From contig JACKOB010000003.1 in the NCBI GenBank assembly GCA_024234575.1, positions 434,001 to 498,000 of the forward strand: a stretch of DNA of 64,000 nucleotides, read 5' to 3'. The notes beneath the pieces are model-generated. The model did no database searches. It was not told where the DNA came from and saw only the letters and a list, made by a program, of their open reading frames with translations. Shown one piece after another: positions 44,308-63,578 of the stretch. The position numbers were made by a program, and so were the translations under genes. This DNA is from Hahellaceae bacterium (GTDB lineage Bacteria > Pseudomonadota > Gammaproteobacteria > Pseudomonadales > Oleiphilaceae). Every line of letters begins with the position of its first letter. Positions within the stretch are counted from its first letter, which is position 1.

Positions 44308-44381
44308 GTCGAGTAAAGGTGAATAGCTTGGGCGGTGTAAAAGCTGCCTGAGCTGATAAAAGTCTATTGAACAGGATGAAA

Positions 44382-44555
44382 ATGATGGCCAAGTATCAGT
44401 GCCCGGATTGCGGGTATATCTATGATGAACATTATGGTTGTGAGCGGGAAGGTTATAACGCCGGAACACTCTGGTCAGAGCTGCCGGAAGACTTTCCTTG
44501 CCCGGATTGTTTTGTGCGAGACAAGCCCGATTTTGAGAAAATTTCAGAAGGCTAG
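44382..44555 (+). CDS. Rubredoxin (first of two)
   Basis: A 57-residue rubredoxin with CPDCGYIYDE and CPDCFVRDKPDFE, the two knuckles binding one iron. Open sequence starts at a TTG at 44367, but AGGA at 44373 best serves the ATG pair at 44382/44385 (MMAKYQ). The long, acidic middle (HYGCEREGYNAGTLWSELPE) and the replaced residues after the second knuckle differ from the second rubredoxin and resemble the AlkG1-type that is not always able to support AlkB; this is an inference. Confidence 0.9.
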   Translation: MMAKYQCPDCGYIYDEHYGCEREGYNAGTLWSELPEDFPCPDCFVRDKPDFEKISEG

Positions 44556-44590
44556 GCTCTGATCATTTTAACGTATTAAGGAAAGCGATA

Positions 44591-44761
44591 ATGAGTTTCA
44601 GAAAGTACTGTTGTATCACTTGCGATACGGTTTATGACGAGGCGACAGGTTGGCCTGACGAGGGTATTGCGCCAGGTACGCGCTGGGAAGATATCCCGGA
44701 TGATTGGACCTGTCCCGAGTGCTCGGCATCGAAGTCTGATTTTTATTTGATGGACGCATAG
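44591..44761 (+). CDS. Rubredoxin (second of two)
   Basis: A 56-residue gene translated directly from the sequence: MSFRKYCCITCDTVYDEATG, then GWPDEGIAPGTRWEDIPDDW and CPECSASKSDFYLMDA, ending in TAG at 44759. Its two C-x-x-C knuckles (C-I-T-C and C-P-E-C) and the PGTRWEDIPDDW block are classical rubredoxin; it is probably the direct electron donor to AlkB (AlkG2-type). The ATG follows AAGGAAAG. Tandem rubredoxins are common beside alkB. Confidence 0.92.
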   Translation: MSFRKYCCITCDTVYDEATGWPDEGIAPGTRWEDIPDDWTCPECSASKSDFYLMDA

Positions 44762-44784
44762 GTTAATACCAGGGAGACGCAATC

Positions 44785-46059: not shown

Positions 46060-46083
46060 TCTAAACTTTAAGCACCTGCGAAT

Positions 46084-48828: not shown

Positions 48829-48841
48829 TGGCTATTGAGCG

Positions 48842-48888
48842 GTGGCAGCCCTTTGAGTGTCGCGCGATGCACTAACTCCAGCTGCCAC
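48842..48888. repeat. Inverted repeat after the AlkS-like gene
   Basis: GTGGCAGC (48842-48849) pairs with GCTGCCAC (48881-48888) across a 31-base loop. There is no T-run, so a terminator is not clear. Confidence 0.4.
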
Positions 48889-48905
48889 TTCTAACAGGTT
48901 ACCGG

Positions 48906-49142
48906 TACTTAGTTCGAGCCTTTGATGGCCTCGTATCGTGCTAACAGTTGGCGCGCACTATGCACCACGGGTAAGTCGATCATCTTACCTTTGTATTCCA
49001 CCGCCCCTTTGCCTTCTTTAAGGCCATCTTCAAACGCTTGTACTAAGCCTCTGGCATGGGCAACTTCTTCATCAGAGGGCGTAAGCACTTCATTGAGAAT
49101 GGCCGCTTGCGTTGGATGAATGCAAAATGCACCGACAAATCC
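48906..49142 (-). pseudogene. Truncated copy of the CoA-ester lyase 3' end
   Basis: These 237 bases match 50492-50728 with seven substitutions and no indels (97%). They encode the last ~78 residues of the CitE-like lyase up to the same stop codon. Six of the seven differences are synonymous and one is Glu/Asp, so most divergence happened while the sequence was under selection. The identity stops abruptly at 49142/49143, where the transposase remnant begins. There is no start codon context of its own; it is not expected to make a functional protein. Confidence 0.93.
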
Positions 49143-50373
49143 ATCCATTTCTTAAAGTTCCAGGCACTTGCTGCCATAAGCAGGTTAATGGTGTCACCCT
49201 GACTACCTTTAAGCCAATTTCTTGATAAGCGAAAGTCGTGTTTCAAATGGCCAATGACCGGCTCAATCGCTGATCGTTTTTGGCATAACCTACGCTTTCT
49301 TTGTCTTTCTTTTTCGCTATCTCTTTTAATGGTGCACTTGGCAGAATAACTTCTACATCCACTTTGCGCTTGCAGCCTTTGTATCCCCGGTCAACCACCG
49401 CGGTAGTTACCAGTGTCTTCCTGTTTTCATTGGCGGATGCCAAAGCTGATTTGAGTGTTCTAGAATCGTGCTCATGATCATCATGACTCACCGCACCAAC
49501 AATAACGTGACTCCCCTCTGTGGCAACTACAGACGCTTTTCGACCATACTCATAAGGTTTGTGATCCTTTCCTTTTCCAATGCAGTGAATGTCATGCTCA
49601 TGCAGGCTGTAAATCTTGTTTTTGTCTTTGGGTTGTTGCGCTAACACTTTTCATAAAGTGCAAAACGATCTGCCTCTTGCTGCAATATTGCTTCCGGTAG
49701 TTTGCGTTGTAGTTCCCGAATCAATACCCCTGCGATAGTTCTTAATCTTCTTAGTGCTTTTTAGCTTTTGCTCGACGTTTGGCGTGTCGAAAATGACGGC
49801 TTGCCAAGCGCAACTCTCTCACTTCTTTAACGAATGTGCGTCGCTGCTTGATCCCGTGCTTTTTTGCTAGCTTGTTCAGTCTGTTAATGATCTTGATGGC
49901 AAGCTTTGTGTCTGTAGGATAGGTAATGGCTTTTCTTGGACGGTGGTATCAACCAGCACCGTAGGTTCTTCTGCCGCATCCCCGTGAATAGCTACTGAAA
50001 GCGCAAAAATTCGCTTTATGCCCTCCTCGCCAATGCGTTGACGAAACTTTACCAGCTCTGTGCTATGGCAGGGGACTGTTGTTTGGAATGTGGTTTCTCC
50101 ACAGAACACCTGGTAGTACAGGTTCATTTGCCATTGCGCGACTACCGACTCGTCACTGAGGTTGTTTAACTGCTTGAGGATAAGCAAGCCAGACATCAAC
50201 CGAATGGGTTTAGCCGCTCTCCCCAAATGGCTGTACAACGAGGCAAAATGTGCTTCTAACGAAGACCAATCAATCTCTCGGCCCAGAGCAAGAAGCGGAT
50301 GGTTAGTATCGAGTTGATCAGTGATATCAAAAAAGCCGGACTGAGGCTCTTTAACAGGACTTTTTGAACGCAT
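49143..50373 (-). pseudogene. IS5-superfamily transposase, several frameshifts, C-terminus truncated
   Basis: The reading frame breaks near 49880, between 49650 and 49880, and near 49270. Reassembled by eye it reads as a DUF772-type N-terminus (GRAAKPIRLMSGLLILKQL, ELVKFRQRIGEEGI), the first catalytic Asp in VLVDTTVQEK, the second in VVDRGYKG, and the Glu in RSAIEPVIGHLKHDFRL, ending in MAASAWNFKKW at the junction. Each DDE residue is therefore still encoded, but in different frames. The start could be an upstream codon at 50448. It is not expected to be active. Confidence 0.85.
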
Positions 50374-50491
50374 TTTTGAGTTATTTCGACCAGAAAAAGT
50401 AAACTGATTATACTCGCTCCGGTCGAAATAGTTGAGCCATACACCCAATAAACATTAACTATCAACGAGTTGGTTATTTTTCAGGGGCGAC
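49143..50491 (-). mobile_element. Decayed IS5-superfamily insertion sequence remnant
   Basis: About 1.35 kb between the two copies of the lyase 3' end, holding a broken DDE transposase read leftward. The right end is marked by the abrupt change next to TACTTAG at 50492. The left end is missing: homology to the transposase stops at the junction with the truncated lyase copy. A 9-bp inverted repeat (50383-50391 with 50421-50429) flanks a TATAAT-like promoter near the transposase start. No clean terminal inverted repeats or short target duplication can be seen. Confidence 0.8.
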
Positions 50492-50494
50492 TAC

Positions 50495-51385
50495 TTAGTT
50501 CGAGCCTTTGATGGCCTCGTATCGTGCCAACAGTTGGCGCGCACTGTGCACCACGGGTAAATCGATCATTTTACCTTTGTATTCCACCGCCCCTTTGCCT
50601 TCTTTAAGGCCATCTTCAAAGGCTTGTACTAAGCCTCTGGCATGAGCAACTTCTTCATCAGAGGGCGTAAGCACGTCATTGAGAATGGCCGCTTGCGTTG
50701 GATGAATGCAAAATGCACCGACAAATCCTAGCTGTTTAGCGAACAGGATTGTTTCTCTAAAAGCGCTGAGATCGCTGTAATCGGCGATTGAGCCGGGGAA
50801 CCCAAGAGGCACAATGCCCGCACGACGACAGGCGTAGGCGATTAGCTGATTAGGCAGCTGCAACGTAGCAGGAATTGACGCCATACCCGCAGACGCAGAA
50901 AAATCTTCCGAGCCTAGTGTTACCGAAACCACTCGCGGGTGGGCGCTGGCGATTTCATCCAGAACCGGCAATGCCTCTACTGACTCAATCATGGCGATTA
51001 GCCGCGTATGGCCTGCGGTCATGCCGCGCTCGGATTCAAGCACTGCAATAATATCGGCGATGTGCTGAACCTGCCTTGGGCACTCGACTTTTGGTATCAC
51101 AATAGCCGCAACGGCCGGGTTTATGGCCGCTTCGAGGTCGAGTTTGGCCAGTGACTCTTCAAGATTGATACGTGCCAGCGCTGCGGCACCATCCACCGAA
51201 ACTTGCTGCGCTGCGGCCACAACTTTGCTGCGGGCGATCGCTTTTTCTGCCAGTGGCACGCTGTCTTCCAGATCGAGAATATAGGCGTCTGCACCACGGG
51301 TATGTGCTTTAGCGACAAACTTGTCGATATGTACGGGAATAAACAGCAGGGATCGCCATCCCGGATAAGGCTGTCGTTCACTCAT
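50495..51385 (-). CDS. CitE/HpcH-family CoA-ester lyase, probably (3S)-citramalyl-CoA lyase
   Basis: A 296-residue TIM-barrel lyase that cleaves 3-hydroxy-dicarboxyl-CoA esters with Mg2+. Metal and CoA residues are visible: DLEDSVP (residues 38-44), IVIPKVE, IESVEAL and GSEDFSASAGM. It lacks the long insertion around the HWSDPWHW segment that characterises L-malyl/beta-methylmalyl-CoA lyase (Mcl1) and looks more like CitE-like citramalyl-CoA lyases. As the third gene of mct-meh-lyase, the expected reaction is citramalyl-CoA to acetyl-CoA plus pyruvate. Malyl- or methylmalyl-CoA lyase activity cannot be excluded. Confidence 0.85.
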   Translation of the reverse strand: MSERQPYPGWRSLLFIPVHIDKFVAKAHTRGADAYILDLEDSVPLAEKAIARSKVVAAAQQVSVDGAAALARINLEESLAKLDLEAAINPAVAAIVIPKVECPRQVQHIADIIAVLESERGMTAGHTRLIAMIESVEALPVLDEIASAHPRVVSVTLGSEDFSASAGMASIPATLQLPNQLIAYACRRAGIVPLGFPGSIADYSDLSAFRETILFAKQLGFVGAFCIHPTQAAILNDVLTPSDEEVAHARGLVQAFEDGLKEGKGAVEYKGKMIDLPVVHSARQLLARYEAIKGSN

Positions 51386-51433
51386 TTTTATTACTCCTTG
51401 GTGTATTCACTCATGTACTTTGAGTCGTCTCTA

Positions 51434-52285
51434 TTAATCGGCAAGCTCGGCATCCAGTTTCATGCATAGGGCGTTGTGGCTATCGGCAGACCAAAGACTA
51501 AGGCTATTGCCTTCTCTTTTACCTTCAACCTTAAAGGGGGAGGTATCGAAAGTTGGGCGTACCGCGCGAAAGCGGAAGCTGGCGATTTTATCTACCGGGC
51601 ATTGCTGGCGCTTCAGCTCCATCAATAATGTCACTAATAACGGCCCGTGTACTACCAATGCTGGATACAGCTCTTCCTGTATGGCGTAAGTACGATCGTA
51701 GTGAATGCGGTGGCCGTTATACGTCAAGGCCGAGTAGCGAAACAGTAACACTGGGTCTGGGGTAATTGTCTGCTGCCACTGTGCATCTTCCGGCGCTGGC
51801 TTCGCGGGTGGTTGGGGGGCATCGGCGGCAGGCTGTTCACGATAAACAATATTCTGCACCTGGTTGATGCAAAGGTCCTGGTTTTGAAATATTTCGTGTC
51901 TGACGTTAACAAAGACCAGCGCGCCGGTGCTGCCAGACTTTAGATCTACCGACTCGATCGTCGAGACACGCTTAGCTGGCTGGCCAATAATGAGCGGTTT
52001 GAGAATTTCGGCTTCCCCGGCTGCCCACATTCTTCTGGGCAGCGGTACCGGTGGTAAAAATCCACCTTTAGCAGGGTGCCCATCGGCACCGGTAGCACTC
52101 GCCTGCGGTGTTGGTAAAAAGTACAGCCACTCCCAAAACACAGGCAGTTCATCGCCTTTATTTGGCAGTGTGGTATTGCCTAATGCAGCGGCCAAGGCTC
52201 GGGCAGGAAAGAGCGTAATGTCATCTTCCAGCGTTTCCTGTTTACCGACCCAGGTTTGTAAGTGATTGATATCAATTGAAGACAT
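51434..52285 (-). CDS. meh: Mesaconyl-C4-CoA hydratase-like (HTD2/MaoC family)
   Basis: A 283-residue two-hotdog dehydratase. The N-terminal half has FAS1-like features (LPVFWEWLYFLPTP, DGHPAKGGFLPPVPLPRRMW at about 69-87), and the C-terminal half the active-site block RYSALTYNGHRIHYDRTY (183-200). This architecture is that of the Meh enzyme of the Chloroflexus 3-hydroxypropionate bicycle and of itaconyl-CoA hydratase (Ich) of Pseudomonas. It is clearly not the longer mesaconyl-C1-CoA hydratase Mch. With mct upstream and a citramalyl-CoA lyase downstream, mesaconyl-C4-CoA to citramalyl-CoA is the likely reaction; itaconyl-CoA hydration is the main alternative. Confidence 0.82.
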   Translation of the reverse strand: MSSIDINHLQTWVGKQETLEDDITLFPARALAAALGNTTLPNKGDELPVFWEWLYFLPTPQASATGADGHPAKGGFLPPVPLPRRMWAAGEAEILKPLIIGQPAKRVSTIESVDLKSGSTGALVFVNVRHEIFQNQDLCINQVQNIVYREQPAADAPQPPAKPAPEDAQWQQTITPDPVLLFRYSALTYNGHRIHYDRTYAIQEELYPALVVHGPLLVTLLMELKRQQCPVDKIASFRFRAVRPTFDTSPFKVEGKREGNSLSLWSADSHNALCMKLDAELAD

Positions 52286-52358
52286 GGTATTCCCTGATTC
52301 CTGATGTAAGTTTATCTGCTCGTATTGCTTTGCCTAAAAGTTAATGGCCGGCAATTAT

Positions 52359-53588
52359 TCAGGCACCTGCCACAATGCCTTTATCGTGTAGTTGTCCGAT
52401 TTGCGAAGATTGCAGGCCCAGTACGTCCGCCAGCACTTCGTCGGTATTTTCACCCAGCCGTGGCGCTGGTTTTGCAGGTGTTCTGGTGAACGCCGAGAAA
52501 TCCCAGGGGGCACCTGCCGCTAAATAGCTGCCAATACCCGGTTGATCGACATTATTAAACATCGGGTTGGCAACAGAGCAATCGGCATTGGTTTCTACCA
52601 TCTGCTTGATCGTTTGGTACTGACTCCAGCAGACGCCGTTTTTGTTGAAACTTGCTTCGACTTCGGTGAAGTTTCTTTTGGCAATCCACTGACCGATTAT
52701 GTTGGAAATTTCTTCCCTTGCCTCGAAACGGCAGCCTTCCTGAGACAAATCGAGGTTCAGCTGTTGCGCCAGGGCGGCCATTGCCTCCGTTGATTCTGTT
52801 GCCACGCAGAGGGATTTCCATTGCCGTGAGGTGAGGCCAATTACCATCACTCTGGCACCGTCTGCACAAAGAAAGTCACGACCAAATGCACCAAACAGAT
52901 AATTGCCATAGCGCGGACGATCTTTACCAAGCTGTGCTTCTGCAATAAACCCCAGGTGTCCCATTACGGCCATGGCGGCATCGGCTAAGGCAAGCTTAAT
53001 GTGTTGTCCTGCACCACTGCGATAACGATGACGTTCAGCGGCAAGCAGGCCAACGGCAGCCATTTGGCCGGTGACTAAATCCCAGGCGGGCAGTACGTGG
53101 TTACTGGGTTCGCCGTTGGCGCCGCTGCCGGTAATAAATGGTAGGCCAATGGCGGGATTCACGGTGTAGTCTACCGCTGAGCCACCGTGACGGTCGCCCT
53201 GAATCGTCAGCTGAATAAGGTCGGGGCGCTGTGCGCAAAGTTCTTCGTAGGACAGCCAGCCTTTGGGGGGGAAGTTAGTCAGCAGCATGCCCGCCTCTTT
53301 GCCTGGTGCGGTTATGATTTGTTTGGCCAACGCAGAGCCTTCCGGGTCACGAAAGTTAATGGCTACCGAGCGTTTTGATTTATTCAAACCAGCCCAAAAG
53401 AGGCTGACGTTATCCTCGGTTACTGGCCAGCGACGGTAGTCAAGGCCCCCACCAATATTGTCGATACGAATAACATCAGCCCCTAGCTGGGCAAGTGTCA
53501 TGCCTCCTAGAGGGGCGGCAACGAAGGCTGAGGCTTCTACTATCCGCATTCCGGAAAGAATGCCTGATCCTGAGGAAGTATTTTGCAT
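52359..53588 (-). CDS. mct: Mesaconyl-CoA C1-C4 CoA transferase (2-methylfumaryl-CoA isomerase)
   Basis: A family III CoA transferase of 409 residues, the length I recall for the Chloroflexus enzyme, which it resembles closely: SAFVAAPLGGMTLAQLGADV, GGGLDYRRWPVT, YTVNPAIGLPF, HVLPAWDLVTGQM and GNYLFGAFGRDF. The Asp in PAWD (170) is the likely catalytic aspartate. Mct moves CoA within mesaconate from C1 to C4. The ATG at 53588 has an AAAGGGT site; an open frame extends to 53696 but lacks homology. First gene of the leftward mct-meh-lyase operon, divergent from a quinone-oxidoreductase-like gene. Confidence 0.9.
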   Translation of the reverse strand: MQNTSSGSGILSGMRIVEASAFVAAPLGGMTLAQLGADVIRIDNIGGGLDYRRWPVTEDNVSLFWAGLNKSKRSVAINFRDPEGSALAKQIITAPGKEAGMLLTNFPPKGWLSYEELCAQRPDLIQLTIQGDRHGGSAVDYTVNPAIGLPFITGSGANGEPSNHVLPAWDLVTGQMAAVGLLAAERHRYRSGAGQHIKLALADAAMAVMGHLGFIAEAQLGKDRPRYGNYLFGAFGRDFLCADGARVMVIGLTSRQWKSLCVATESTEAMAALAQQLNLDLSQEGCRFEAREEISNIIGQWIAKRNFTEVEASFNKNGVCWSQYQTIKQMVETNADCSVANPMFNNVDQPGIGSYLAAGAPWDFSAFTRTPAKPAPRLGENTDEVLADVLGLQSSQIGQLHDKGIVAGA

Positions 53589-53744
53589 GGCAATGTACCC
53601 TTTGCTTAAGCGGTGAGAGCATTTGGGGAAACGTCCTGAATGGATTATGATTTCCCTTTCTAATTGTTGGGCGAAGAATAAACCAGCGGTTGCCATAAAT
53701 CCACGCTAACAAATGCGTTAGCGCTGAATGAACCAGGGAGTCTC

Positions 53745-54788
53745 ATGCAAGTCGTTGCTTTTAATAAAACCGGGCCGATAGACGTACTTTCGCTGCAGGA
53801 AGCACCAATGCCAGTGCCAGCAGGGCAGGACGTTCTCGTAAAAATAGAATCCGTTGGTCTCAACCGGGCGGATAGTTTGTACCGCGAGGGGCGTTATTTT
53901 ATTAAGCCTTTTGGCGATGCAGGCGGTGCCGGTGAGGTGCAAAATGTACCTAGTCGGGTAGGTTTTGAAGGTGCAGGAACGGTGGTCGAGGCACCGGCGA
54001 ACAGTGATTTTAGCCGCGGCGACAAGGTGGGCATTACTCCCTTGCAGTTTGATGTTAAACAGCAGGGCTGTCTTGCGCAGTATGGAGTTTATCCTGCGTC
54101 TTGCCTGGTACGAACGCCAGCTGGGATTGATGCTGATATTGCAGGAGGGATCTGGATGCCTTACCTGACAGCCTGGGGCGGTTTGGTGACTGACGGCGGG
54201 CTGGATGCCAATACTGCGGCTGGCAAAGTGGTTGTAATCACGGCGGCTTCAAGTTCTGTAGGTACGGCGGCTATCCAGTTGGCGGTTAAGCTTGGGGCAA
54301 CAGTGATTGCGACGACGACCAGCGATCAAAAAATGGCAGAGTTGTCCCGATATGGCGCGCATCATGTCGTCAACATGAAAACGGATGATTACGTCGCCCG
54401 AATCCGCGAAATTACTTCCGGTGGAGGCACTGACCTGGTGTTTGATGCGGTCGCGGGGCCCGGGATGCGCTACCTCGTACAGGGTGCAGCAAGAGGGAGC
54501 AAAATTATCGTACAGGGCATGTTAGACCGGCGCCCGATGGAAATTCATGCCGGTGTCTTGATGAAGCGGCTACTAACGCTTAAGGGCTTTACGCTGGATT
54601 TGCTACTGGAAAACACCGTCGAGTTTCAAAAGGCGGTGGCTGGTTTAACCGCCATGTTTGAGAAGCAAGAGATTTTGCCGGTCATTGCCCAAAAATTCTC
54701 CATGGCGCAGTTCGCTGAGGCGTTTGCGTTGCTTGAGTCTAACAAGCATACCGGGAAAATAATCATCAATCCCTGGGGTAGTGAATGA
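53745..54788 (+). CDS. Zinc-independent quinone oxidoreductase-like MDR protein
   Basis: A 347-residue medium-chain reductase: GroES-like N-terminus (LVKIESVGLNRADSLYREGRY), nucleotide-binding ITAASSSVGTAAIQLAVKLGA, and a C-terminus ending in SNKHTGKIIINPWG. Residues for structural zinc are not present. It is divergent from mct (156 bases between), suggesting shared control. No substrate can be assigned; NADPH-dependent reduction of an enoyl compound or quinone is the family norm. Confidence 0.85.
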   Translation: MQVVAFNKTGPIDVLSLQEAPMPVPAGQDVLVKIESVGLNRADSLYREGRYFIKPFGDAGGAGEVQNVPSRVGFEGAGTVVEAPANSDFSRGDKVGITPLQFDVKQQGCLAQYGVYPASCLVRTPAGIDADIAGGIWMPYLTAWGGLVTDGGLDANTAAGKVVVITAASSSVGTAAIQLAVKLGATVIATTTSDQKMAELSRYGAHHVVNMKTDDYVARIREITSGGGTDLVFDAVAGPGMRYLVQGAARGSKIIVQGMLDRRPMEIHAGVLMKRLLTLKGFTLDLLLENTVEFQKAVAGLTAMFEKQEILPVIAQKFSMAQFAEAFALLESNKHTGKIIINPWGSE

Positions 54789-55113
54789 TTCAAGTTAAAA
54801 TTGGCTAACAACTGTTAATTAATGTGCTGAGAATTATAAAAATTAACCGCTTTATTGATCTGTGTCTGAGTGACTGTTTGGATTACAAATGTATATTTTC
54901 ATCTAAGCCCTTGAGTTTGTGAAAACGCCCTCGGCATTAGACTTTAGTTTTATTTTTTTTTGTTATAGCATGGCTCCCGTATCGTTTTGCGGATTGTTAT
55001 GCTGGGGCTGCTTTACCCCTTCACAGACCGGGCGATGGCTCGCTGGCGAATAGCCGCAAGCATAAATCTGGATAATCCAATTTCTTATTCCCCTTTATAG
55101 TCAGGAGGCCTCT
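54789..55113. other. 325-base intergenic region before mcd
   Basis: No gene is seen. The stretch is AT-rich, with a T-run at 54952-54961 and no hairpin before it that I can defend. It likely holds the promoter for mcd-ecm-meaB-ccr-epi; I found no strong consensus -35/-10 pair. The mcd start is a TTG after TCAGGAGG. Confidence 0.5.
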
Positions 55114-56802
55114 TTGTCTCAGCTACCTTCTTTGCGTATTGATAATGCTTTAGCTTCGGTTGAACTGGTGCAGAAGTTACTAAATAAATCACTGGTTTTT
55201 ATTCGCAGCCAGTGTTTAAACGAAGCAGGCCGCTTGTCGTCCAGCAAGCTGGATGATTATCAATTGGTATCCTATGAGCTGGCATTTTCCTCTGCTGAAG
55301 TAGCGGGTGCCAGGCACATGGTCGAGTACGCACGCAAGATCAGGGCTTCGCGAGGGGAGCCAGAGGATATTCAGCTGGAAGAACGGATAACCTTATTATT
55401 CTCAGCAGAAATTATTCAAAATATTCGTGGTCGCTTGTCGGCGCGTAAAAAAGACTTTGGGCTGTCACAAACAGACTTGCAGGAAACTGTTGATAGCCCG
55501 TCCGTGCAGGCATTCTGTGAAGAAAACCTCGATTCTGCCAGCCTGGTTGCCTTAGGCAAAATCATGTTGCAGCAAGATGGCCGCACTGGCGATTATGTGC
55601 TCGAAGAAGACAAAGAGATCATGCGTGAAACTTTCCGCAACTTTGCCAATGATGTGGTGATGCCGTTATCTGAAGAGATCCACCGGCAGGACTTGATTGT
55701 GCCCGAACAAATTCTGGGGGCGCTTGTCGATATGGGCTGCTTTGGTTTGTCGATACCTGAACAATATGGTGGCTTACAGCCAGATGATCAGGAAGACAAT
55801 ATGGGCATGATAGTCGTGACGGAAGAGTTGTCACGAGGCTCTTTAGCGGCGGCTGGAAGTTTGATTACTCGCCCTGAGATACTCTCCCGGGCGCTGCTTG
55901 CTGGTGGTACGGAAGAGCAAAAACAATTGTGGTTACCAAGATTAGCTACCGCCACTCCACTTTGTGCCGTGGCGATTACCGAGCCAGACTATGGCTCTGA
56001 TGTAGCAGGGATGAAATTGCGCGCCGAGAAAGTTGAAGGTGGCTGGAAGCTTAATGGTGCTAAAACCTGGTGTACTTTTGGTGGCAAAGCAGGTGTGTTA
56101 CTGACACTCGCCAGAACCGATCCGGATGCCTCACTGGGGCACAAAGGTTTAAGTATGTTTCTGGTCGAGAAGCCTTCCTTTGAAGGTCACGACTTTGAAT
56201 ATCGCCAAGACAATGGTGGGGTGATTTCTGGTAAGGCTATTCCTACCATTGGCTACCGGGGCATGCATTCATTTGATGTGTTCTTCGATGATTTCTTTGT
56301 CCCTGATGCGAATTTGCTTGGGGGAGAAGCGGGCTTAGGTAAAGGCTTCTATTTCACCATGGCAGGTTTTGCCGGTGGCCGTATTCAGACTGCAGCGCGT
56401 GCAACAGGCCTGATGCAGGCAGCGTTTGAACGGGCGATCAGCTATTCCAAAGATCGAAAAGTATTTGGCTCACCCATTGCAGACTACCAGCTTACGTTAG
56501 TTAAAATCGCCCGAATGGCCATGTTATTAACGTCTTCCAGACAATTCACCTATGCGGTAGGACGTTTAATGGATGAAGGCAAAGGGCAAATGGAAGCCAG
56601 CTTGGTAAAATTATTTGCCTGCAAGACTTCCGAGTGGTTGTGCCGGGAAGCAATGCAGATTCACGGTGGCATGGGCTATGCAGAAGAGTCTGCTGTCAGC
56701 CGTTACTGGATTGATTCTCGCGTATTGTCGATTTTTGAAGGTGCTGAAGAAACATTGGCGCTAAAGGTCATTGCGCGATCACTTATCGAAAACGCAGCTT
56801 GA
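55114..56802 (+). CDS. mcd: (2S)-methylsuccinyl-CoA dehydrogenase
   Basis: A 562-residue flavoprotein that oxidises methylsuccinyl-CoA to mesaconyl-C1-CoA. An N-terminal helical region of about 150 residues (VSYELAFSSAEVAGARHMVE, LLFSAEIIQNIRGRL) precedes the ordinary acyl-CoA dehydrogenase fold; this long form is typical of Mcd and not of short acyl-CoA dehydrogenases. Core motifs: AITEPDYGSDVAGM, TWCTFGGKAGV, RKVFGSPIADYQ, IHGGMGYAEES and FEGAEETLALK. Start is a TTG with a strong AGGAGG. It is followed by a large hairpin and ecm. Confidence 0.92.
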   Translation: MSQLPSLRIDNALASVELVQKLLNKSLVFIRSQCLNEAGRLSSSKLDDYQLVSYELAFSSAEVAGARHMVEYARKIRASRGEPEDIQLEERITLLFSAEIIQNIRGRLSARKKDFGLSQTDLQETVDSPSVQAFCEENLDSASLVALGKIMLQQDGRTGDYVLEEDKEIMRETFRNFANDVVMPLSEEIHRQDLIVPEQILGALVDMGCFGLSIPEQYGGLQPDDQEDNMGMIVVTEELSRGSLAAAGSLITRPEILSRALLAGGTEEQKQLWLPRLATATPLCAVAITEPDYGSDVAGMKLRAEKVEGGWKLNGAKTWCTFGGKAGVLLTLARTDPDASLGHKGLSMFLVEKPSFEGHDFEYRQDNGGVISGKAIPTIGYRGMHSFDVFFDDFFVPDANLLGGEAGLGKGFYFTMAGFAGGRIQTAARATGLMQAAFERAISYSKDRKVFGSPIADYQLTLVKIARMAMLLTSSRQFTYAVGRLMDEGKGQMEASLVKLFACKTSEWLCREAMQIHGGMGYAEESAVSRYWIDSRVLSIFEGAEETLALKVIARSLIENAA

Positions 56803-56807
56803 TCATG

Positions 56808-56851
56808 TTGGTCTGCAAACAAGCCGGCAGACTGCTGTGTTTGCAGACCAA
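56808..56851. repeat. Perfect 14-bp inverted repeat between mcd and ecm
   Basis: TTGGTCTGCAAACA (56808-56821) pairs perfectly with 56838-56851; the loop is 16 bases. There is no T-run. In the transcript it would form a very stable hairpin between the two genes, perhaps protecting or processing the mRNA, or adjusting their ratio. Confidence 0.85.
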
Positions 56852-56927
56852 AGCGACGCTTCACGCTACAACCATTCCCTAAATAATGCGCCAGAATTTA
56901 ATTGAAAGCGTAAGGCAGGATGTTCTG

Positions 56928-58952
56928 ATGACTGAGAAACAAAACCACATCATTTATGGTAAAGACGGTAAACCGACTAAAGACCGGCCGTGGATATTTC
57001 GTACCTACGCCGGGCACACAAACGTTTGGGCAACCAATGAATTGTATCGGGACAACCTGTCGAAAGGTCAGACGGGTTTAAGTATTGCCCTGGATTTACC
57101 TACTCAGTGTGGCTACAGCTCAGAGCATCCGATCGCGAAGCCAGAAATCGGCAAAGTCGGCGTACCTATTAATACGCTTGATGATTTTCATGTGCTGTTC
57201 GACAACATTCCCCTTGAGGAAATGAACACGTCGATGACTATTAATGGCACGGCAATGTGGCTGTTGTCGCTGTATGTGGCATTAGCAGAAGAGCGTGGCG
57301 TGACCGTCGCCGAGTTAAAAGGGACGACGCAGAATGACTTGATCAAAGAGTATTTGGCACGGGGAACCTATATTTTCCCGCCTGAAGATTCTATGCGTTT
57401 GATCGTCGATATGTATGAATACTGTCTGCACAATATTCCGTCCTGGAATGCCTCCAATATATGCTCGTATCACCTGCAGGAAGCGGGAGCGACACCCGTG
57501 CAAGAGCTTGCTTTTGCATTGGTGACGGCCATTACCATTCTCGATGCCATCAAAGAGCGCGACTGTTTTACCGAAGAAGAGTTCGAACGTTGTGTGGGGC
57601 GCATTTCATTTTTCGTCAACGCGGGTATGCGCTTTGTTGAAGAAGTTTCCAAAATGCGTGCGTTTTGCGAAATGTGGGATGAGATTACACAAAAGCGATA
57701 TGGCGTGAAAAACGAAAAGTATCGCCGTTTTCGTTATGGGGTTCAGGTTAACTCGTTAGGGCTCACCGCAGAACAACCCGAAAACAACGCGTGGCGCATA
57801 CTGATCGAAACCTTGGGTGTCACCCTGAGTCGCAAGGCTCGTTGTCGCGCATTGCAGCTGCCTGCCTGGAACGAAGCGTTGTCTTTGCCAAGGCCTTGGG
57901 ATCAGCAGTGGTCATTGCGTATTCAGCAGATACTGGCTTACGAGACAGATTTGCTCGAGTACCCCGACCTGCTTGATGGCTCGCATGTTATAGAGTCGAA
58001 AGTGAAAGATTTAAAAGCACAAGCCTATAGTGAAATTGAAAAAATACTCGACATGGGCGGTGGTGTTGAAGCGGTTAAAAGCGGCTACATGAAGTCAGCA
58101 CTGGTGGCCTCGCAGAGTGCACGCATGGCGCGTCTATCCTCTGGTGAGCAAGTGGTTGTCGGTAAGAATAAGTGGGTCGAAGGTCTGGCGTCACCCTTGG
58201 TGGGCGGCAGCGATGGCGGTATTTTCATGGTCGATGCGAAAGCCGCCCAAAAAACCATCGAAGCGCTGCAGAAAACTATACAAACGCGGGACCAGTCCCG
58301 CGTTGATGCGGCGCTGGCACGTCTGGTTGAAGAAGCCCGATCCGATAAAAACCTTATGGAGGCATCTATAGAGTGTGCCAAAGCGCGTGTTACCACTGGC
58401 GAGTGGTCTGCTGCGCTGCGGTCAGTGTTTGGAGAGTTTCGGCCACCCACAGGTGTTGATGGGCAGTCCCTCACAATCGATACCGATACGCTAAAAGCAG
58501 TACGTGCAAAAATTGCCGCGTTCATTGAGAAGTATGGCTATCGGCCGCGCATGGTGGTGGGTAAACCTGGTCTGGATGGGCACTCAAATGGCGCCGAGAT
58601 GATTTCCGTATCAGCACGACATGCGGGTTTTGATGTTATTTATTTCGGTATTCGTCTCAGTGCAGAAGAAATCGTGCAGTCGGCGATAGAAGAGAATGTC
58701 GATGTCATCGGTGTGTCGTTGCTGTCCGGCTCGCACAATGAAATCATGAAGCAGCTGTTCGATGAACTCGAAAAGAGCGGTGCGAAAGATGGCATTCCGG
58801 TGGTGTTGGGCGGCATTATTCCAGAGCCTGATTATGCTGGGCTGCAGCGACTGGGAGTCAAGAAAATATTTACACCAAAAGATTTTGATCCGATGCAGGT
58901 GATGTCCGAAATTATGGATGTGATTAACGAACAAAAGCAGGTGAAGGCGTAG
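56928..58952 (+). CDS. ecm: (2R)-ethylmalonyl-CoA mutase
   Basis: A B12-dependent mutase that isomerises ethylmalonyl-CoA to methylsuccinyl-CoA. The 674-residue protein has the large substrate domain (RTYAGHTNVW, GLSIALDLPTQCGY, CSYHLQEAGATP) and a C-terminal cobalamin domain with GKPGLDGHSNGAEMI and VSLLSGSH. The HSNGAE and LLSGSH blocks are those of ethylmalonyl-CoA mutases, while methylmalonyl-CoA mutases have HDRGA and LAAGH. An ATG at 56886 is in frame but has no ribosome-binding site; the ATG at 56928 has AGGA seven bases upstream. MeaB follows. Confidence 0.93.
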   Translation: MTEKQNHIIYGKDGKPTKDRPWIFRTYAGHTNVWATNELYRDNLSKGQTGLSIALDLPTQCGYSSEHPIAKPEIGKVGVPINTLDDFHVLFDNIPLEEMNTSMTINGTAMWLLSLYVALAEERGVTVAELKGTTQNDLIKEYLARGTYIFPPEDSMRLIVDMYEYCLHNIPSWNASNICSYHLQEAGATPVQELAFALVTAITILDAIKERDCFTEEEFERCVGRISFFVNAGMRFVEEVSKMRAFCEMWDEITQKRYGVKNEKYRRFRYGVQVNSLGLTAEQPENNAWRILIETLGVTLSRKARCRALQLPAWNEALSLPRPWDQQWSLRIQQILAYETDLLEYPDLLDGSHVIESKVKDLKAQAYSEIEKILDMGGGVEAVKSGYMKSALVASQSARMARLSSGEQVVVGKNKWVEGLASPLVGGSDGGIFMVDAKAAQKTIEALQKTIQTRDQSRVDAALARLVEEARSDKNLMEASIECAKARVTTGEWSAALRSVFGEFRPPTGVDGQSLTIDTDTLKAVRAKIAAFIEKYGYRPRMVVGKPGLDGHSNGAEMISVSARHAGFDVIYFGIRLSAEEIVQSAIEENVDVIGVSLLSGSHNEIMKQLFDELEKSGAKDGIPVVLGGIIPEPDYAGLQRLGVKKIFTPKDFDPMQVMSEIMDVINEQKQVKA

Positions 58953-58971
58953 GCGGCGGAATATAGCATCG

Positions 58972-59979
58972 ATGATAAGCACCGAACTTGAAAGCCTGGT
59001 TGCCAGCGCAGGCAGGCTCGAAAAGTGGCCGTTAGCCAAATTGATTTCCCTCTTCGAAACAGAAACAGAAGAGTCGAAACAATCGCGGCAGCAAGTGATG
59101 AGTTACTTGCAGGCGCAGCATAAAGATGGACCGGGTGGTTTTGTTCTGGGTATAACGGGTACGCCTGGGGCTGGCAAGTCGAGTCTTATTGGTGAACTTT
59201 GTCTGTCGTTGTTGGCGTCAGCAGATGGCCTTTCCGTAGCGGTGTTGGCGGTTGATCCGTCGAGCCAGTCGTCCGGTGGAGCGTTGCTGGGGGATAGAAC
59301 CCGCACCCAGCTGCCTGTCAGCAACCCTCGAATATTTTTTCGGTCACAGGCCTCAGACCTGGACTTGGGGGGCGTGGGCAGAAAAACGTTTCAGGTGGTG
59401 CGTTTACTGCGCTATTTTTTCGATTTGGTGATTATTGAAACCGTTGGCATTGGCCAGAGTGAAGTCGAAGTGAAAACGCTGAGTGACCACACCGTATTAG
59501 TGATGCAGCCGCTGGCCGGAGATCAGGTCCAGTTTATGAAGGCTGGGGTGATGGAGGTTCCTGATACGTTTGTGGTCAATAAATGTGATGAAGACTCACT
59601 GGCCAAAAAGAGCTATCACCTGCTCAAGTCGAGTTTAAAGTTAGTGCACATTTATGTGGGTGCCGAAGGTGATGGCAATAAACAGATTTTCCTCACCAGT
59701 GCATTAAAGCAGAAAGGTATTGGTGAGCTTGCTGATTTTGTGATGTCGCAGATTAGCCTCGCGGGAAATCGACAAAGTCTGCAGAATCTTGAAGCGTATT
59801 ATTTAAAGAAACAGGTTGCCCGCGTTTATGGCACCTATGGATTGGCAGTGCTGGAAAGGTATGAAAAAAGCGGCCTCAGTATGCTGAAAACATTTGAAGA
59901 AAAAGAGCAGGCCATCTTCCAGCTTTTGGGTGCGGCTTTACCTGCTGTTGATTCTTATTGCCAGGTTTTATCCTGGTAA
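58972..59979 (+). CDS. meaB: MeaB/ArgK-type GTPase, mutase chaperone
   Basis: A G3E-type GTPase of 335 residues that protects and reactivates B12-dependent acyl-CoA mutases. Walker A is ITGTPGAGKSSLI, Walker B region VAVLAVDPSSQ, followed by GALLGDRTR, IIETVGIGQSE and NKCDEDS for base recognition. It lies 19 bases after ecm, so it most probably serves Ecm rather than a methylmalonyl-CoA mutase, none of which is seen here. Confidence 0.95.
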   Translation: MISTELESLVASAGRLEKWPLAKLISLFETETEESKQSRQQVMSYLQAQHKDGPGGFVLGITGTPGAGKSSLIGELCLSLLASADGLSVAVLAVDPSSQSSGGALLGDRTRTQLPVSNPRIFFRSQASDLDLGGVGRKTFQVVRLLRYFFDLVIIETVGIGQSEVEVKTLSDHTVLVMQPLAGDQVQFMKAGVMEVPDTFVVNKCDEDSLAKKSYHLLKSSLKLVHIYVGAEGDGNKQIFLTSALKQKGIGELADFVMSQISLAGNRQSLQNLEAYYLKKQVARVYGTYGLAVLERYEKSGLSMLKTFEEKEQAIFQLLGAALPAVDSYCQVLSW

Positions 59980-60049
59980 ATACAAATTCTTTGTAAGAAA
60001 ACTTAAACTTTTTAACCTATAGCAATTAAAAAAATAAGAGGAATTTTTT

Positions 60050-61294
60050 ATGACTAAGGAACTCTATGAAATTGGTGAAACCCCACCGCTGGGTGTGGTG
60101 CCCAAGAAAATGCACTCATGGTTGATTCGCCCGGAGAGATTCGGCGAGCCGATGCAGGCGTTTGCGAAAGAGGTGATTGATGTGCCAGAGATCGCCGACG
60201 ATGAAGTATTGGTTTACGTAATGGCTGCCGGGGTTAACTATAATAACGTTTGGGCTGGTTTGGGTATTCCGGTTGATGTTATTAAGGCCAGACAAAAAGG
60301 TGGTGAAACGGAAAACTTTCACATCGGTGGTTCAGACGCTTCAGGCATCGTCTACAGAGTTGGTAAAGATGTAACCAGCGTAAAAGTGGGTGACGAAGTC
60401 GTTGCACATTGTGGTAGTTGGTCGAAAAACGGTGAGTTGGTAAAACAAGGTAAAGATCCAATGTATGACCCCACTTTCCGTATTTGGGGCTATGAAACGA
60501 ACTACGGCAGCTTTGCTCAATTTACCAAAGTACAAGACCATCAGTTGCTGCCTAAACCCAGGCATTTAAGTTGGGAAAGCGCGGCCGCATACATGCTGGT
60601 AGGCGCGACATCCTATCGAATGCTGATGGCATGGACCCCTAATCACGTTAAGAAAGATGATGTGGTCTTGGTCTGGGGTGGTGCAGGTGGCATTGGTTGT
60701 ATGGCTATTCAGATTGCGGCAGCGATGGGGGCCAAGCCAATAGCAGTAATCTCTGATGAGAGTAAAATCGACTATTGTATGAAGCTTGGTGCCATTGGCT
60801 GCATAAACCGTAACGACTTCGACCACTGGGGCATGATGCCGCACTGGAAAGATGCCGATGCCTATGGCGAGTGGCTTAAAGGTGCGCGTGGGTTTGGTAA
60901 GGCCATATGGGACATCCTGGGCGAAAAACGGGGCGTTGACGTGGTTTTCGAACATCCTGGTGAGTCAACATTGCCAACCTCTATCTTCGTCTGTGAAACA
61001 GGCGGTATGGTAACTATTTGTGCGGGCACGACGGGATTCAATGCCACACTGGATTTACGCTATCACTGGATGCGTCAAAAGCGCTTGCAGGGATCTCACT
61101 TTGCCAATGACGAGCAAGCGAAGGGCATTAACGACCTGGTCATCGCAGGCAAAGTTGACCCTTGCCTGTCCAAAACATTTACTTATGACCAGCTTCCTGA
61201 AGCACATCAACTGATGTACGAAAACAAGCACCCGTCTGGCAACATGTCTGTGCTGGTAGGTGCTGTTGATGAAGGCATGGGAATTTCCAGCTAA
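60050..61294 (+). CDS. ccr: Crotonyl-CoA carboxylase/reductase
   Basis: Ccr reductively carboxylates crotonyl-CoA with NADPH and CO2 to (2S)-ethylmalonyl-CoA. The 414-residue MDR protein has the CO2-pocket residues: Asn in GVNYNNVW (65-66), Tyr-Glu in [11 protein letters not shown] (Glu149) and His in GSHFAND (His349). Other hallmarks are [19 protein letters not shown] and RYHWMRQKR. Plain crotonyl-CoA reductases lack these blocks. It starts at an ATG after AAGAGGA, following meaB by 70 bases. Confidence 0.96.
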
Positions 61295-61304
61295 TTGAAT
61301 CCTA

Positions 61305-61342
61305 TTAGCTTCTCCTGTCGCGGGTTCGGCGGGGGAAGCTAA
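61305..61342. repeat. Inverted repeat between ccr and epi
   Basis: TTAGCTTCTCC (61305-61315) pairs with 61332-61342 with one G-U pair; the loop is GC-rich (16 bases). There is no T-run. It is the second stable intercistronic hairpin in this operon. Confidence 0.75.
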
Positions 61343-61360
61343 CGTTGGCGTATCATCATA

Positions 61361-61783
61361 GTGAGTAATAGTGTGATTAAAAAAATCGATCATTTAGGCA
61401 TTGCGGTTACTGATCTTCAGGAAGCAATCGAAATCTATAAAAATATTGGCTTGGAGTTTGTGGGCACAGAAGTGGTTGACGAGCAAAAAGTTGAAACAGC
61501 GTTTTTTCGGGTAGGCGAGTCGTATTTCGAATTGCTTGCAGCGACTGACCCGAGTAGCCCGATAGCAAAGTTTATCGAGAAAAACGGTGGACGAATGCAT
61601 CATATTGCCTTGGCTGTTGATGACGTAGAGGCTGAAATAGAACGTTTATTGGGCTTGGGTTTCGACATGATCGACAAATCCCCAAGGCGCGGTGCACATG
61701 GTAATTTGATAGCATTTATGCACCCTAAGGCAACAAAAGGAACTTTGCTCGAGATTTGCTGTAAAGAAAAGCCGTCAGTCTGA
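61361..61783 (+). CDS. epi: Ethylmalonyl-CoA/methylmalonyl-CoA epimerase
   Basis: A 140-residue VOC-fold epimerase that interconverts the S and R forms of ethylmalonyl- or methylmalonyl-CoA. DHLGIAVTDLQEAIEIY holds the first metal-binding His, GGRMHHIALAVDD the second region, and TLLEICCKE the Glu ligand. It starts at a GTG and closes the ecm-meaB-ccr run, giving Ecm the R-isomer it needs. Confidence 0.93.
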   Translation: MSNSVIKKIDHLGIAVTDLQEAIEIYKNIGLEFVGTEVVDEQKVETAFFRVGESYFELLAATDPSSPIAKFIEKNGGRMHHIALAVDDVEAEIERLLGLGFDMIDKSPRRGAHGNLIAFMHPKATKGTLLEICCKEKPSV

Positions 61784-61993
61784 GCTGGTAATGTTTTGTT
61801 ATTAGCCGATATCACACTGGTCTGGGTGTAATGGAATAGAACTTATGCCCCTAATAACATTTATTTCTATTAACATTGGCAAATTTAAGATAAACCACTT
61901 TAAGCTCACCGAGGAAAGCGTATAATCTCGCACCATTCGATCGGCCTGGCCGGTTATGACACATCGTTCTGGTAAAGAACTAGGGTGGCAGTG

Positions 61994-62398
61994 ATGAGAT
62001 TACAATTGGATAATGGCAAGAGTTATGAACTTAACGCCATGTTTAAACCAGCTAAGGTGGGGCAAGCAGAAGCTTGGGGAACATTTCGAAATAACCTGGC
62101 GGCCTGGCCTAAAGGATTAATCATCCCCTTTGAAGCCACCAAGAGAACGCTTCGGGGTTTAGTAAACTGGTTGATCGTTTTTACGCTGCACTCCTTTTCT
62201 TTGCTTATGCTGCCGCTGTTGTCCTTATTCGGCTACTCAATGAAAGCGTACACGCTGTTTACCCGTGAAGACCAGGAAAAAATGGAGCAGTACCGGGAAG
62301 ATTTAAGGCTGGTTTACAAGAAGCTCGCCGACATTAGCGACCAAGAAGAATATCAGCGTAAGCTGAGTGAAGAAATTGCTAAGATAAAACCCTATTAA
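61994..62398 (+). CDS. Membrane-associated hypothetical protein, 134 aa
   Basis: A protein beginning MRLQLDNGKSYEL, with a hydrophobic middle (about residues 55-85, LVNWLIVFTLHSFSLLMLPLL) and a charged, likely coiled C-terminal tail (YREDLRLVYKKLADISDQ). The ATG at 61994 has AGGG eight bases upstream; a GTG at 61985 is possible. I do not recognise a family. It is convergent with the cyclic-nucleotide-type sensor. A TATAAT at 61921 could be part of its promoter. Confidence 0.65.
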   Translation: MRLQLDNGKSYELNAMFKPAKVGQAEAWGTFRNNLAAWPKGLIIPFEATKRTLRGLVNWLIVFTLHSFSLLMLPLLSLFGYSMKAYTLFTREDQEKMEQYREDLRLVYKKLADISDQEEYQRKLSEEIAKIKPY

Positions 62399-62462
62399 TA
62401 ATTCGTAGTTATCCCACCTGTCCTCGTTAAGCCACATAGCTAGTCTAATTTTGTACAGACAG

Positions 62463-62485
62463 CCCAGCCACTTTAGTTGGCTGGG
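62463..62485. terminator. Possible terminator between convergent genes
   Basis: CCCAGCCA (62463-62470) pairs with TGGCTGGG (62478-62485) across a 7-base loop. The T-run is weak on both sides, so termination is only probable. Confidence 0.5.
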
Positions 62486-62495
62486 GGTGGTAAAA

Positions 62496-63578
62496 TTAAC
62501 GGCCTCTAATAACAAACGCTTTAATGCTGTTTTGTGCCAGGATGTGTGCAGCTATTTCATTGCGCTGGCCGCCGTCATCCGATAAGTAATAAGTTTTTGA
62601 TTTATCAAGTCGTGCCACTTTATCTCTAAGCTCATCAATAGGAATGTGCAGGCAGTTAGGCATGGGGATATGCTCAAACTCCGTCATTGACCTGATATCA
62701 AGCATCGAAGCCGATGTGCCAGCCTCGGCCTTAATAGTTTCGTATTCCGCTGGCGTTACATATTGTACTAAAGGGTCATGCAATAAGCTTTGGAACGAAG
62801 TCTTATCCAGTCGCGCTAACTGGCTGTCTTCATTCATCACAACCGATGCTGAACGCACCGTTTCTGATACCAGTGCCTCTTCGCCAAAGTAAGCGCCAGG
62901 TTTGAGTGTGGCTACTTTTGTGGTGCCATCGCCAACCAATACGCTGGCACTGCCTTTGATGAGCAGGTAGAAGTAGTCGCCATCATCGCCTTCCTTAATG
63001 ATCACTTCGTCTTTGCTGGCCTTAATTCTTTCAAATTTTTCGAAGAGCTCAGTGATGTTGCTGGGTGGAAGATTAAAAAACAAGGGGAATTCCAGCAGGC
63101 TTGTCATCCAGTTGAAGTAGGCCTCATCAAACTCACCTTCTGCGGTTGTTGGTCCATTTGATGTGGTGCTGGCTGTGTGTTTCTTCTGCAGGGTTTTCAC
63201 TTCCCTGGCTTCGGACTCGCTCCAGGCAAGCGCCCGGTCAATAAACTTGGGGTCAAGTAATAACAAATGTCCTGGAGTATTTGCTTTAACGGATACGCCG
63301 TTAGGAATAAGTTTATTGATCGGATGCAGACAAATCGGGTCGCCACTATCGATTTTAGTGCTTGATAGTAAACCTTTTTTAGCCGTGATTTTTCCGGCCA
63401 GCAGATAGTAGGAAAAGGCCAGGTCATGCTCTTTTTCAAATATCACTTCTCCCGGCTCAAAAATCACCACTTTACTGTTTTTCAGGGTTTGTGATAAATA
63501 CTTGGGTGATAGCTGGTCCAGCGGCGAGTACTTTACCAGTGTATCTTCGGTGATATTCAATTGTGCTTGAAGTGACAT
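62496..63578 (-). CDS. Cyclic-nucleotide-binding/rhodanese-like sensor protein
   Basis: A 360-residue protein with two cyclic-nucleotide-binding-like beta-barrel domains (about 18-115 and 160-265; the second has the IIKEGDDGDYFYLL and GAYFGEEALVSET blocks of a phosphate-binding cassette) and a C-terminal rhodanese-like domain (about 280-360). The usual rhodanese active loop with catalytic Cys is replaced by LSDDGGQRNEIA, so no sulfurtransferase activity is expected. No DNA-binding domain is seen; it likely senses a nucleotide and signals through protein contacts. Confidence 0.85.
   Translation of the reverse strand: MSLQAQLNITEDTLVKYSPLDQLSPKYLSQTLKNSKVVIFEPGEVIFEKEHDLAFSYYLLAGKITAKKGLLSSTKIDSGDPICLHPINKLIPNGVSVKANTPGHLLLLDPKFIDRALAWSESEAREVKTLQKKHTASTTSNGPTTAEGEFDEAYFNWMTSLLEFPLFFNLPPSNITELFEKFERIKASKDEVIIKEGDDGDYFYLLIKGSASVLVGDGTTKVATLKPGAYFGEEALVSETVRSASVVMNEDSQLARLDKTSFQSLLHDPLVQYVTPAEYETIKAEAGTSASMLDIRSMTEFEHIPMPNCLHIPIDELRDKVARLDKSKTYYLSDDGGQRNEIAAHILAQNSIKAFVIRGR

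Follow-up and report, generated by a model that had tools for sequence, protein, structure and literature searches.

The locus described here lies in a window of 64,000 nucleotides (the whole stretch analysed), which covers positions 434,001 to 498,000 of contig JACKOB010000003.1 from a Hahellaceae bacterium (GCA_024234575.1). An island of nine neighbouring genes occupies window positions 50495-61783. All nine reading frames are intact and lie where the initial annotation had placed them, and the family and structure matches fit that gene set. Three genes are on the minus strand (from the middle outwards mct, meh and a CitE/HpcH-type lyase gene) and six are on the plus strand (mdr, mcd, ecm, meaB, ccr and epi). 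The divergent arms begin 156 bases apart, and the intergenic gaps within the island measure 19-325 bases. The rightward arm had been given as mcd, ecm, meaB, ccr and epi; these genes are all present, but that list omits mdr at 53745-54788. The nine genes are as follows.

50495..51385, minus strand: CitE/HpcH-type C-C lyase, predicted (S)-citramalyl-CoA lyase forming pyruvate and acetyl-CoA (PF03328, metal site kept)
51434..52285, minus strand: Meh, predicted mesaconyl-C4-CoA hydratase (match to PDB 8huc/8khg)
52359..53588, minus strand: Mct, predicted CoA transferase moving CoA from C1 to C4 of mesaconate (PDB 7xkg/8apq, active site kept)
53745..54788, plus strand: mdr, medium-chain dehydrogenase/reductase, PIG3-like (TIGR02824, 186 bits against a cut-off of 297)
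55114..56802, plus strand: Mcd, predicted (2S)-methylsuccinyl-CoA dehydrogenase of the Pseudomonas migulae kind (PDB 8ciw)
56886..58952, plus strand: Ecm, predicted B12-dependent ethylmalonyl-CoA mutase (PF01642, PF02310, identity to alphaproteobacterial mutases)
58972..59979, plus strand: MeaB, mutase chaperone GTPase (PF03308; TIGR00750, 200 bits against a cut-off of 241)
60050..61294, plus strand: Ccr, crotonyl-CoA carboxylase/reductase (TIGR01751 above cut-off; PDB 9kva, 4y0k, 4gi2)
61361..61783, plus strand: Epi, ethylmalonyl-/methylmalonyl-CoA epimerase (TIGR03081 above cut-off)

Curated equivalog cut-offs were reached by Ccr (TIGR01751, 558.9 bits against 378.55) and Epi (TIGR03081, 142.1 bits against 114.95) only. 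Mct, MeaB, Mcd, the mutase and the lyase scored below that level, and because no equivalog cut-off was passed, their names and that of Meh were assigned by alignment with solved structures or named proteins. Among the mutase records listed (25 of 424), Ecm was 55-57% identical to alphaproteobacterial mutases, one of them the meaA found near ccrA in Ruegeria, and only 36-41% identical to methylmalonyl-CoA mutases. We assign it as a predicted ethylmalonyl-CoA mutase distinct from methylmalonyl-CoA mutase. Mcd passed no NCBIfam cut-off and aligned over its full length with the (2S)-methylsuccinyl-CoA dehydrogenase PDB 8ciw (E 1.3e-192), scoring 644 bits against this P. migulae kind and 297 bits against the Paracoccus kind (6es9). 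The P. migulae Mcd in locus L007 is letter-identical to 8ciw across the chain's 555 amino acids. With reference residues taken from the accessible text of PMC5798300, the window's Mcd retains all three substrate arginines of Paracoccus Mcd (Arg253, Arg382 and Arg429) and its catalytic glutamate (Glu542). Departures were found at Paracoccus Glu380, the holder of one substrate arginine, which is Ser386 here, and at Ala285/Phe287, which are Val286/Ile288 here and Ile at both positions in 8ciw.

Above any alphaproteobacterial mutase listed, Ecm was 72% identical to a Leptospira interrogans gene annotated as a methylmalonyl-CoA mutase family protein (L109, 11998-14010), and a match at this level occurred on two L. 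interrogans records. The gene that follows the homologue is annotated as 'protein kinase' and could be MeaB. Mct was not found on the single 350-kb L. interrogans record searched, the rest of the genome lying outside the search. Leptospira lives on fatty acids, and given this lifestyle and the Ecm likeness its acetyl-CoA assimilation may merit attention.

For the leftward arm, Mct scored 554 bits against TIGR04253 (2-methylfumaryl-CoA isomerase; cut-off 725), and its full-length alignment with two Mct enzymes of solved structure, 7xkg and 8apq, had E about 1e-160. The catalytic Asp165 of Chloroflexus Mct, together with Arg47, Tyr136, Asp135 and Leu43 (the 'cork'), corresponds to Asp170, Arg53, Tyr141, Asp140 and Leu49 here, and Asn100, Phe101 and Arg75 are also kept. 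Differences were found at Arg104, Glu133 and Ile74, which are Lys109, Ala138 and Phe79 in the window. Leucine at the 'cork' position is common to intramolecular transferases (PMC9813914), and the sole CoA transferase in the island belongs to the Mct family. A start of mct at 53588 is likelier than one at 53696, and the close homologues listed are mostly 403-409 amino acids long. Meh matched the itaconyl-CoA hydratase 8huc/8khg over residues 10-265 (E about 1e-63), and no Pfam or NCBIfam model matched it at E <= 0.001.

The lyase belongs to the HpcH/HpaI family (PF03328) and falls below the equivalog cut-offs for citE (169 of 443 bits) and RipC/Ccl (144 of 375 bits). Its metal-site residues Glu134 and Asp161 are kept, and Glu160 occupies the site of an alanine invariant in malyl-CoA lyases; the text available from PMC3832036 reports this alanine as 100% conserved in both malyl-CoA lyase clusters and links it to room for propionyl-CoA. 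The fold of a structural model is closest to malyl-CoA lyases, but the fold comparison does not separate these from citramalyl-CoA lyases. Identity was 26-28% to the lyases adjoining mct in Roseiflexus, Chloroflexaceae and four other 3-hydroxypropionate-bicycle-like loci (lyases from six of seven such loci; no lyase was found in L027), and 50-53% to the lyases of four clusters also holding mcd, mct and meh. This comparison comprised 54 rows, including repeats of the same genes from overlapping loci, after rows with less than 80% coverage were dropped. The lower arm had initially been read as a 3-hydroxypropionate-bicycle set, and a bicycle origin was dropped on these identities.

Homologues of every step from crotonyl-CoA to pyruvate and acetyl-CoA are therefore in place, and it is probable that the island encodes a hybrid acetyl-CoA assimilation pathway leading from acetyl-CoA and CO2 to pyruvate. 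Crotonyl-CoA would arise from two acetyl-CoA or from beta-oxidation of alkane-derived fatty acids. Ccr would carboxylate it reductively to ethylmalonyl-CoA, which Epi and Ecm/MeaB would convert to (2S)-methylsuccinyl-CoA, and Mcd would oxidise the latter to mesaconyl-C1-CoA. Mct would then shift CoA from C1 to C4 to give mesaconyl-C4-CoA, Meh would add water to form (S)-citramalyl-CoA, and the lyase would split this into pyruvate and acetyl-CoA. The predicted net reaction is acetyl-CoA + CO2 + 2 NADPH to pyruvate + CoA + one reduced electron-transfer flavoprotein, without ATP. What the analysis shows directly is which genes are present and in what order, to which families they belong, that active-site residues are retained and that the genes are inherited together; from this, all substrates, the direction of flux and the role are predicted.

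Joint inheritance was examined in 101 genomes, an even sample of the larger family to which an Oleiphilus metagenome-assembled genome (MAG) belongs, with presence set at E <= 1e-80 for Ccr and E <= 1e-100 for Mct. In the gene-neighbourhood comparisons, matches under 50-60% of query length were dropped. Ccr was present in 10 genomes and Mct in 18. Mct identity was 70-84% in exactly the 10 Ccr-bearing genomes and 54-55% in the eight without such a Ccr. The chance of 10/10 against 0/91 is 5e-14, a figure that ignores the kinship of these related genomes. Three of the eight relatives with the more distant Mct were inspected; each had, close to Mct, an Mcd of 57-58% identity, and the stretches read contained no ccr. 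Among named Mct proteins, those of Alkalimarinus (81-82%) and Oleiphilus (78%) were the most similar.

All 10 Ccr-bearing relatives hold lyase, meh, mct, mdr, mcd, ecm, meaB and ccr. These eight genes stand on one contig in unchanged divergent order in nine relatives and are split over two contigs in the tenth (G001), and the lyase orthologue adjoins meh and mct in every case. An epi orthologue (86-89%) was found in six, and the stretches fetched from the other four contained none. A GGDEF gene lies between mdr and mcd in G002, and the genes outside the lyase end differ between G001 and G002. In each of the 10 relatives the island also retains, in place, the PIG3-like reductase gene mdr (44-58% identity).

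The same 10 relatives were used for tests of absence. Mch (PF19315) was not in the window's cluster, was absent from nine relatives and was full-length in none, and the same search gave matches in 3 of 14 control genomes. The Mch match in G046 was rejected: it is split between two proteins of one domain each, whose neighbours (a lyase, an AMP-ligase and an acyl-CoA dehydrogenase) mark another catabolic cluster. All 10 relatives have the island's own HpcH/HpaI lyase, and G046 and G060 alone have another of full length (that of G060, L139, was scanned with Pfam). Weak partial matches to this family occurred in frames of 518-860 amino acids in eight genomes, three of them at or above the family cut-off. 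Ecm was the only member of the methylmalonyl-CoA-mutase family in seven relatives, and a second mutase was present in G002, G034 and G046. Acetoacetyl-CoA reductase (E <= 1e-80) was found in seven and was missing from the three with a second mutase. Isocitrate lyase (PF00463) was found in nine, two of the matches being read as intact frames of 531 and 533 amino acids, and gave no match in G046. Since it was present in 100 of the 101 family genomes, it is no marker of the 10. Malate synthase was found in all 10 (in pieces in G046, whose genes lie on many short contigs), as was phosphoenolpyruvate carboxylase. The absences in G023, G026, G036 and G042 are firm, because the island there is on a contig spanning about the whole genome.

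With no full-length Mch and usually no second lyase or mutase, no complete gene set for the usual later half of the ethylmalonyl-CoA pathway can be assembled for most relatives, and the sole exit for mesaconyl-C1-CoA visible in the gene content of the 10 is the one predicted through Mct, Meh and the lyase to pyruvate and acetyl-CoA. This exit, already proposed in the initial annotation, is the best-supported reading and was strengthened by the relatives. Among the findings that had been named as counting against the proposal was a glyoxylate bypass elsewhere that carries acetate growth; in gene content such a bypass, which may carry that growth, can be drawn in most relatives.

The lower genes also occur elsewhere as a unit. 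The genes mcd, mct, meh and lyase stand together in loci L005, L007, L023 and L026, and no close Ccr was found in these genomes. In L007 (718-11215) and L026 (671-11269), they follow on one strand an HMG-CoA-synthase-like (3-hydroxy-3-methylglutaryl-CoA-synthase-like) gene, a thiolase, two enoyl-CoA hydratases and a 3-hydroxyacyl-CoA dehydrogenase, in the order meh, lyase, mcd and mct. Judged from its genes, this run may serve the breakdown of a compound that beta-oxidation converts to methylsuccinyl-CoA. The seam between the two halves, initially set after Mcd, falls by similarity between Ecm and Mcd, as Mcd is of the P. migulae kind. The gene comparisons likely reflect a history in which a ccr-ecm-meaB-epi set was joined onto an mcd-mct-meh-lyase module. 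In a midpoint-rooted tree, the fork with the hybrid (Ccr-island) group had support of 94/94, short of the starred level; this group comprised 11 rows, with G002 counted twice (L002 and L108), and rows with less than 70% coverage were dropped.

For the wider spread, the best 80 of at least 557 Mct loci were considered, and 64 of the 80 were given to two Ccr searches of 17 of 18 and 48 of 49 genomes, respectively (L018 left out both times, L023 and L026 in both), amounting to 63 genomes. No close Ccr was found in 15 of the 17 Mct-bearing genomes of the first set. In the second, 9 of 48 had Ccr at E <= 1e-50. It was 69-73% identical in five, namely L037, L040 and L047 (Competibacteraceae/Contendobacter) and L070 and L074 (Rhodospirillales MAGs), and 37-39% identical in four Actinomycetota and Acidimicrobiia MAGs. 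In three of those five (L159, L163 and L164), ecm and meaB lie near ccr, and in L163 and L164 mcd does too. L163 is from a Competibacteraceae MAG, and its mcd shares 63% identity with that of the window, compared with 52-58% for the Ccr-free module; by this measure, the joining of ecm and ccr to an Mcd of the P. migulae kind may therefore be older than the island. Both halves thus do co-occur elsewhere in Gammaproteobacteria, not as one island in the stretches read, some of which are cut by contig ends. According to the portions of the papers at hand, Ca. Contendobacter holds an ethylmalonyl-CoA set including mch and mcl, Ca. Competibacter has such a set containing mch and lacking mcl (PMC8956781), and partial 3-hydroxypropionate-bicycle genes are reported in Ca. 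Competibacter (PMC6593406).

An Actinomycetota MAG (L039, 8320-10109) has, about 3 kb from mct, a Ccr (TIGR01751, 547 bits; 36-38% identical to that of the window) together with an epimerase-like gene, and Ccr may have been paired with Mct independently there. In Azospirillum (L060 and L071), Mct has Meh, a lyase and a less similar Mcd-like dehydrogenase (37%) in its vicinity, and no Ccr was found in these genomes at E <= 1e-50.

Outside the lyase end, from about 1.7 kb onwards, the window holds a large MalT/LuxR-type regulator and a rubredoxin reductase with a rubredoxin-binding domain, and 6 kb off a desaturase-family protein (together at 43057-48828). The last was placed by Pfam, and we take it to be AlkB-like. 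These neighbouring genes make an alkane-related setting of the island likely. Transposase remnants at 49243-50448 (pieces of DDE_Tnp_1 and DUF772 in separate frames) separate the alkane genes from the intact lyase gene. No RNA family reached its gathering score in 48800-62500.

An ordinary ethylmalonyl-CoA pathway could also be read from the island, with an unrecognised hydratase or Meh making beta-methylmalyl-CoA, the lyase yielding glyoxylate and propionyl-CoA, and Mct serving a side branch. The standard upper half, the modelled lyase fold closest to malyl-CoA lyases, the malate synthase in every relative and, in the consulted part of PMC8956781, the full set with mch and mcl in the gammaproteobacterium Ca. 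Contendobacter are all in keeping with it. However, none of the 10 relatives has a full-length Mch, and seven have no mutase besides Ecm, although propionyl-CoA would there need a methylmalonyl-CoA mutase. Moreover, Glu160 replaces the alanine reported as invariant in the PMC3832036 text, and Mct and Meh would be idle and yet kept in 10 of 10. We consider this reading unlikely. Still less probable is that a module for the breakdown of methylsuccinyl-CoA (or mesaconate or itaconate) lies by chance beside ccr and ecm, which would serve another end such as ethylmalonyl-CoA supply. Module parts do occur without a close Ccr, both in the first set of genomes and in the four loci named above; the L007 and L026 modules lie behind thiolase, hydratase and 3-hydroxyacyl-CoA dehydrogenase genes; and Meh is related to itaconyl-CoA hydratase. 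Against a chance neighbourhood, the distributions of the close Mct and of Ccr coincide, both being confined to one group of 10 among the 101 genomes, the predicted product of Ecm would be exactly the substrate of Mcd, and the island has no CoA-ligase-like or itaconate CoA transferase-like gene.

A further alternative concerns the role of the route and not its chemistry. The proposed reactions may act chiefly as a valve for redox or carbon, or only in particular circumstances, while normal growth on acetate or alkanes depends on the glyoxylate bypass; we give this an even chance. It would agree with the isocitrate lyase and malate synthase genes of the relatives and with the two acetyl-CoA assimilation routes that the accessible text of PMC6747724 and PMC10370305 reports for Paracoccus denitrificans. 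On the other side stand the retention of the island in all 10 relatives and the lack of an isocitrate lyase match in G046, though the latter genome is scattered over short contigs. Because nine of the 10 relatives also have isocitrate lyase, the proposed acetyl-CoA-to-pyruvate pathway probably supplements the bypass, and from the gene content its role is probably to supply C3 units and to direct surplus reductant into CO2 fixation on reduced substrates. Biomass has about 4.2 electrons per carbon, and 6.1 were computed for hexadecane. Alkanes are thus more reduced than biomass, and fixing CO2 with the surplus reductant is a plausible reason for the route.

Compared with known systems, the island shares Ccr, Epi, Ecm/MeaB and Mcd, CO2 entry via Ccr and the course to mesaconyl-C1-CoA with the ethylmalonyl-CoA pathway of Rhodobacter, Methylorubrum and Paracoccus. 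In contrast to that pathway, its relatives have no full-length Mch and mostly no second lyase or mutase, its Mcd is nearer the P. migulae kind than the Paracoccus kind, and its predicted product is pyruvate instead of glyoxylate and propionyl-CoA. With the second cycle of the 3-hydroxypropionate bi-cycle of Chloroflexus it has Mct, Meh, a lyase and the predicted ends pyruvate and acetyl-CoA in common. However, methylsuccinyl-CoA would be the source of mesaconyl-C1-CoA, in place of glyoxylate and propionyl-CoA, and by its identity (26-28%) and Glu160 in place of alanine the lyase does not appear to be a trifunctional malyl-/methylmalyl-/citramalyl-CoA lyase of the Chloroflexus kind. The mcd-mct-meh-lyase module of P. 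migulae (L007) and Pseudomaricurvus (L026) has the same four enzymes, each 49-64% identical to that of the window. Unlike the island, it is set behind beta-oxidation genes in genomes without a close Ccr and with no Ecm nearby, and therefore methylsuccinyl-CoA there likely comes from another source. The itaconate/methylsuccinate cluster (Ict, Ich, Ccl, Mcd and Msi), as presented in the part of PMC12290011 consulted, has a homologous hydratase, a lyase of the same superfamily and C4-CoA chemistry leading to pyruvate and acetyl-CoA, whereas its dehydrogenase acts on methylsuccinyl-C4-CoA and the island has Mct and no itaconate CoA transferase. The same text suggests coupling a CETCH module to citramalyl-CoA for synthetic biology.

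The closest counterpart is the reductive citramalyl/ethylmalonyl-CoA design, an artificial module of 2021 with the same net reaction (acetyl-CoA + HCO3- + 2 NADPH + ubiquinone to pyruvate), which the accessible text of PMC10521678 describes as needing no ATP and as favourable (-39 +/- 9 in its table). Every step of the design from crotonyl-CoA to pyruvate and acetyl-CoA has a homologue in the window and in 10 of 10 relatives (Epi in the fetched stretch of six). In the excerpts of PMC11599936 (2024), the natural acetyl-CoA assimilation cycles listed all end in a C4 compound, with carbon lost in making C3 units; the natural direct route to pyruvate named there is the oxygen-sensitive pyruvate synthase, and a B12 mutase has been engineered for pyruvate formation with CO2 uptake in air. 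The two halves were initially not known to be described together as a natural pathway in a gammaproteobacterium. The five further Mct-bearing genomes with Ccr at 69-73% and the published design narrow that claim, and a natural pathway of this kind was not found in the parts consulted of the open-licence literature searched (most subscription papers lie outside it). We regard it as rather likely that the island represents a natural, oxygen-tolerant and ATP-free pathway from acetyl-CoA and CO2 to pyruvate, in which a carboxylating ethylmalonyl-CoA half is joined to a methylsuccinyl-CoA breakdown module and inherited as one island in Alkalimarinus, Oleiphilus and their kin, a living counterpart of the 2021 design. 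A question of physiology would then become testable, namely whether degraders of alkanes and fatty acids, whose substrates carry more electrons per carbon than biomass, fix CO2 to dispose of electrons and to spare carbon alongside the glyoxylate bypass. Whereas the design, as available to us, is a paper assembly of parts from different pathways, the island is natural and inherited, and if the proposal holds, it would be a source of ready, co-evolved enzymes for the route.

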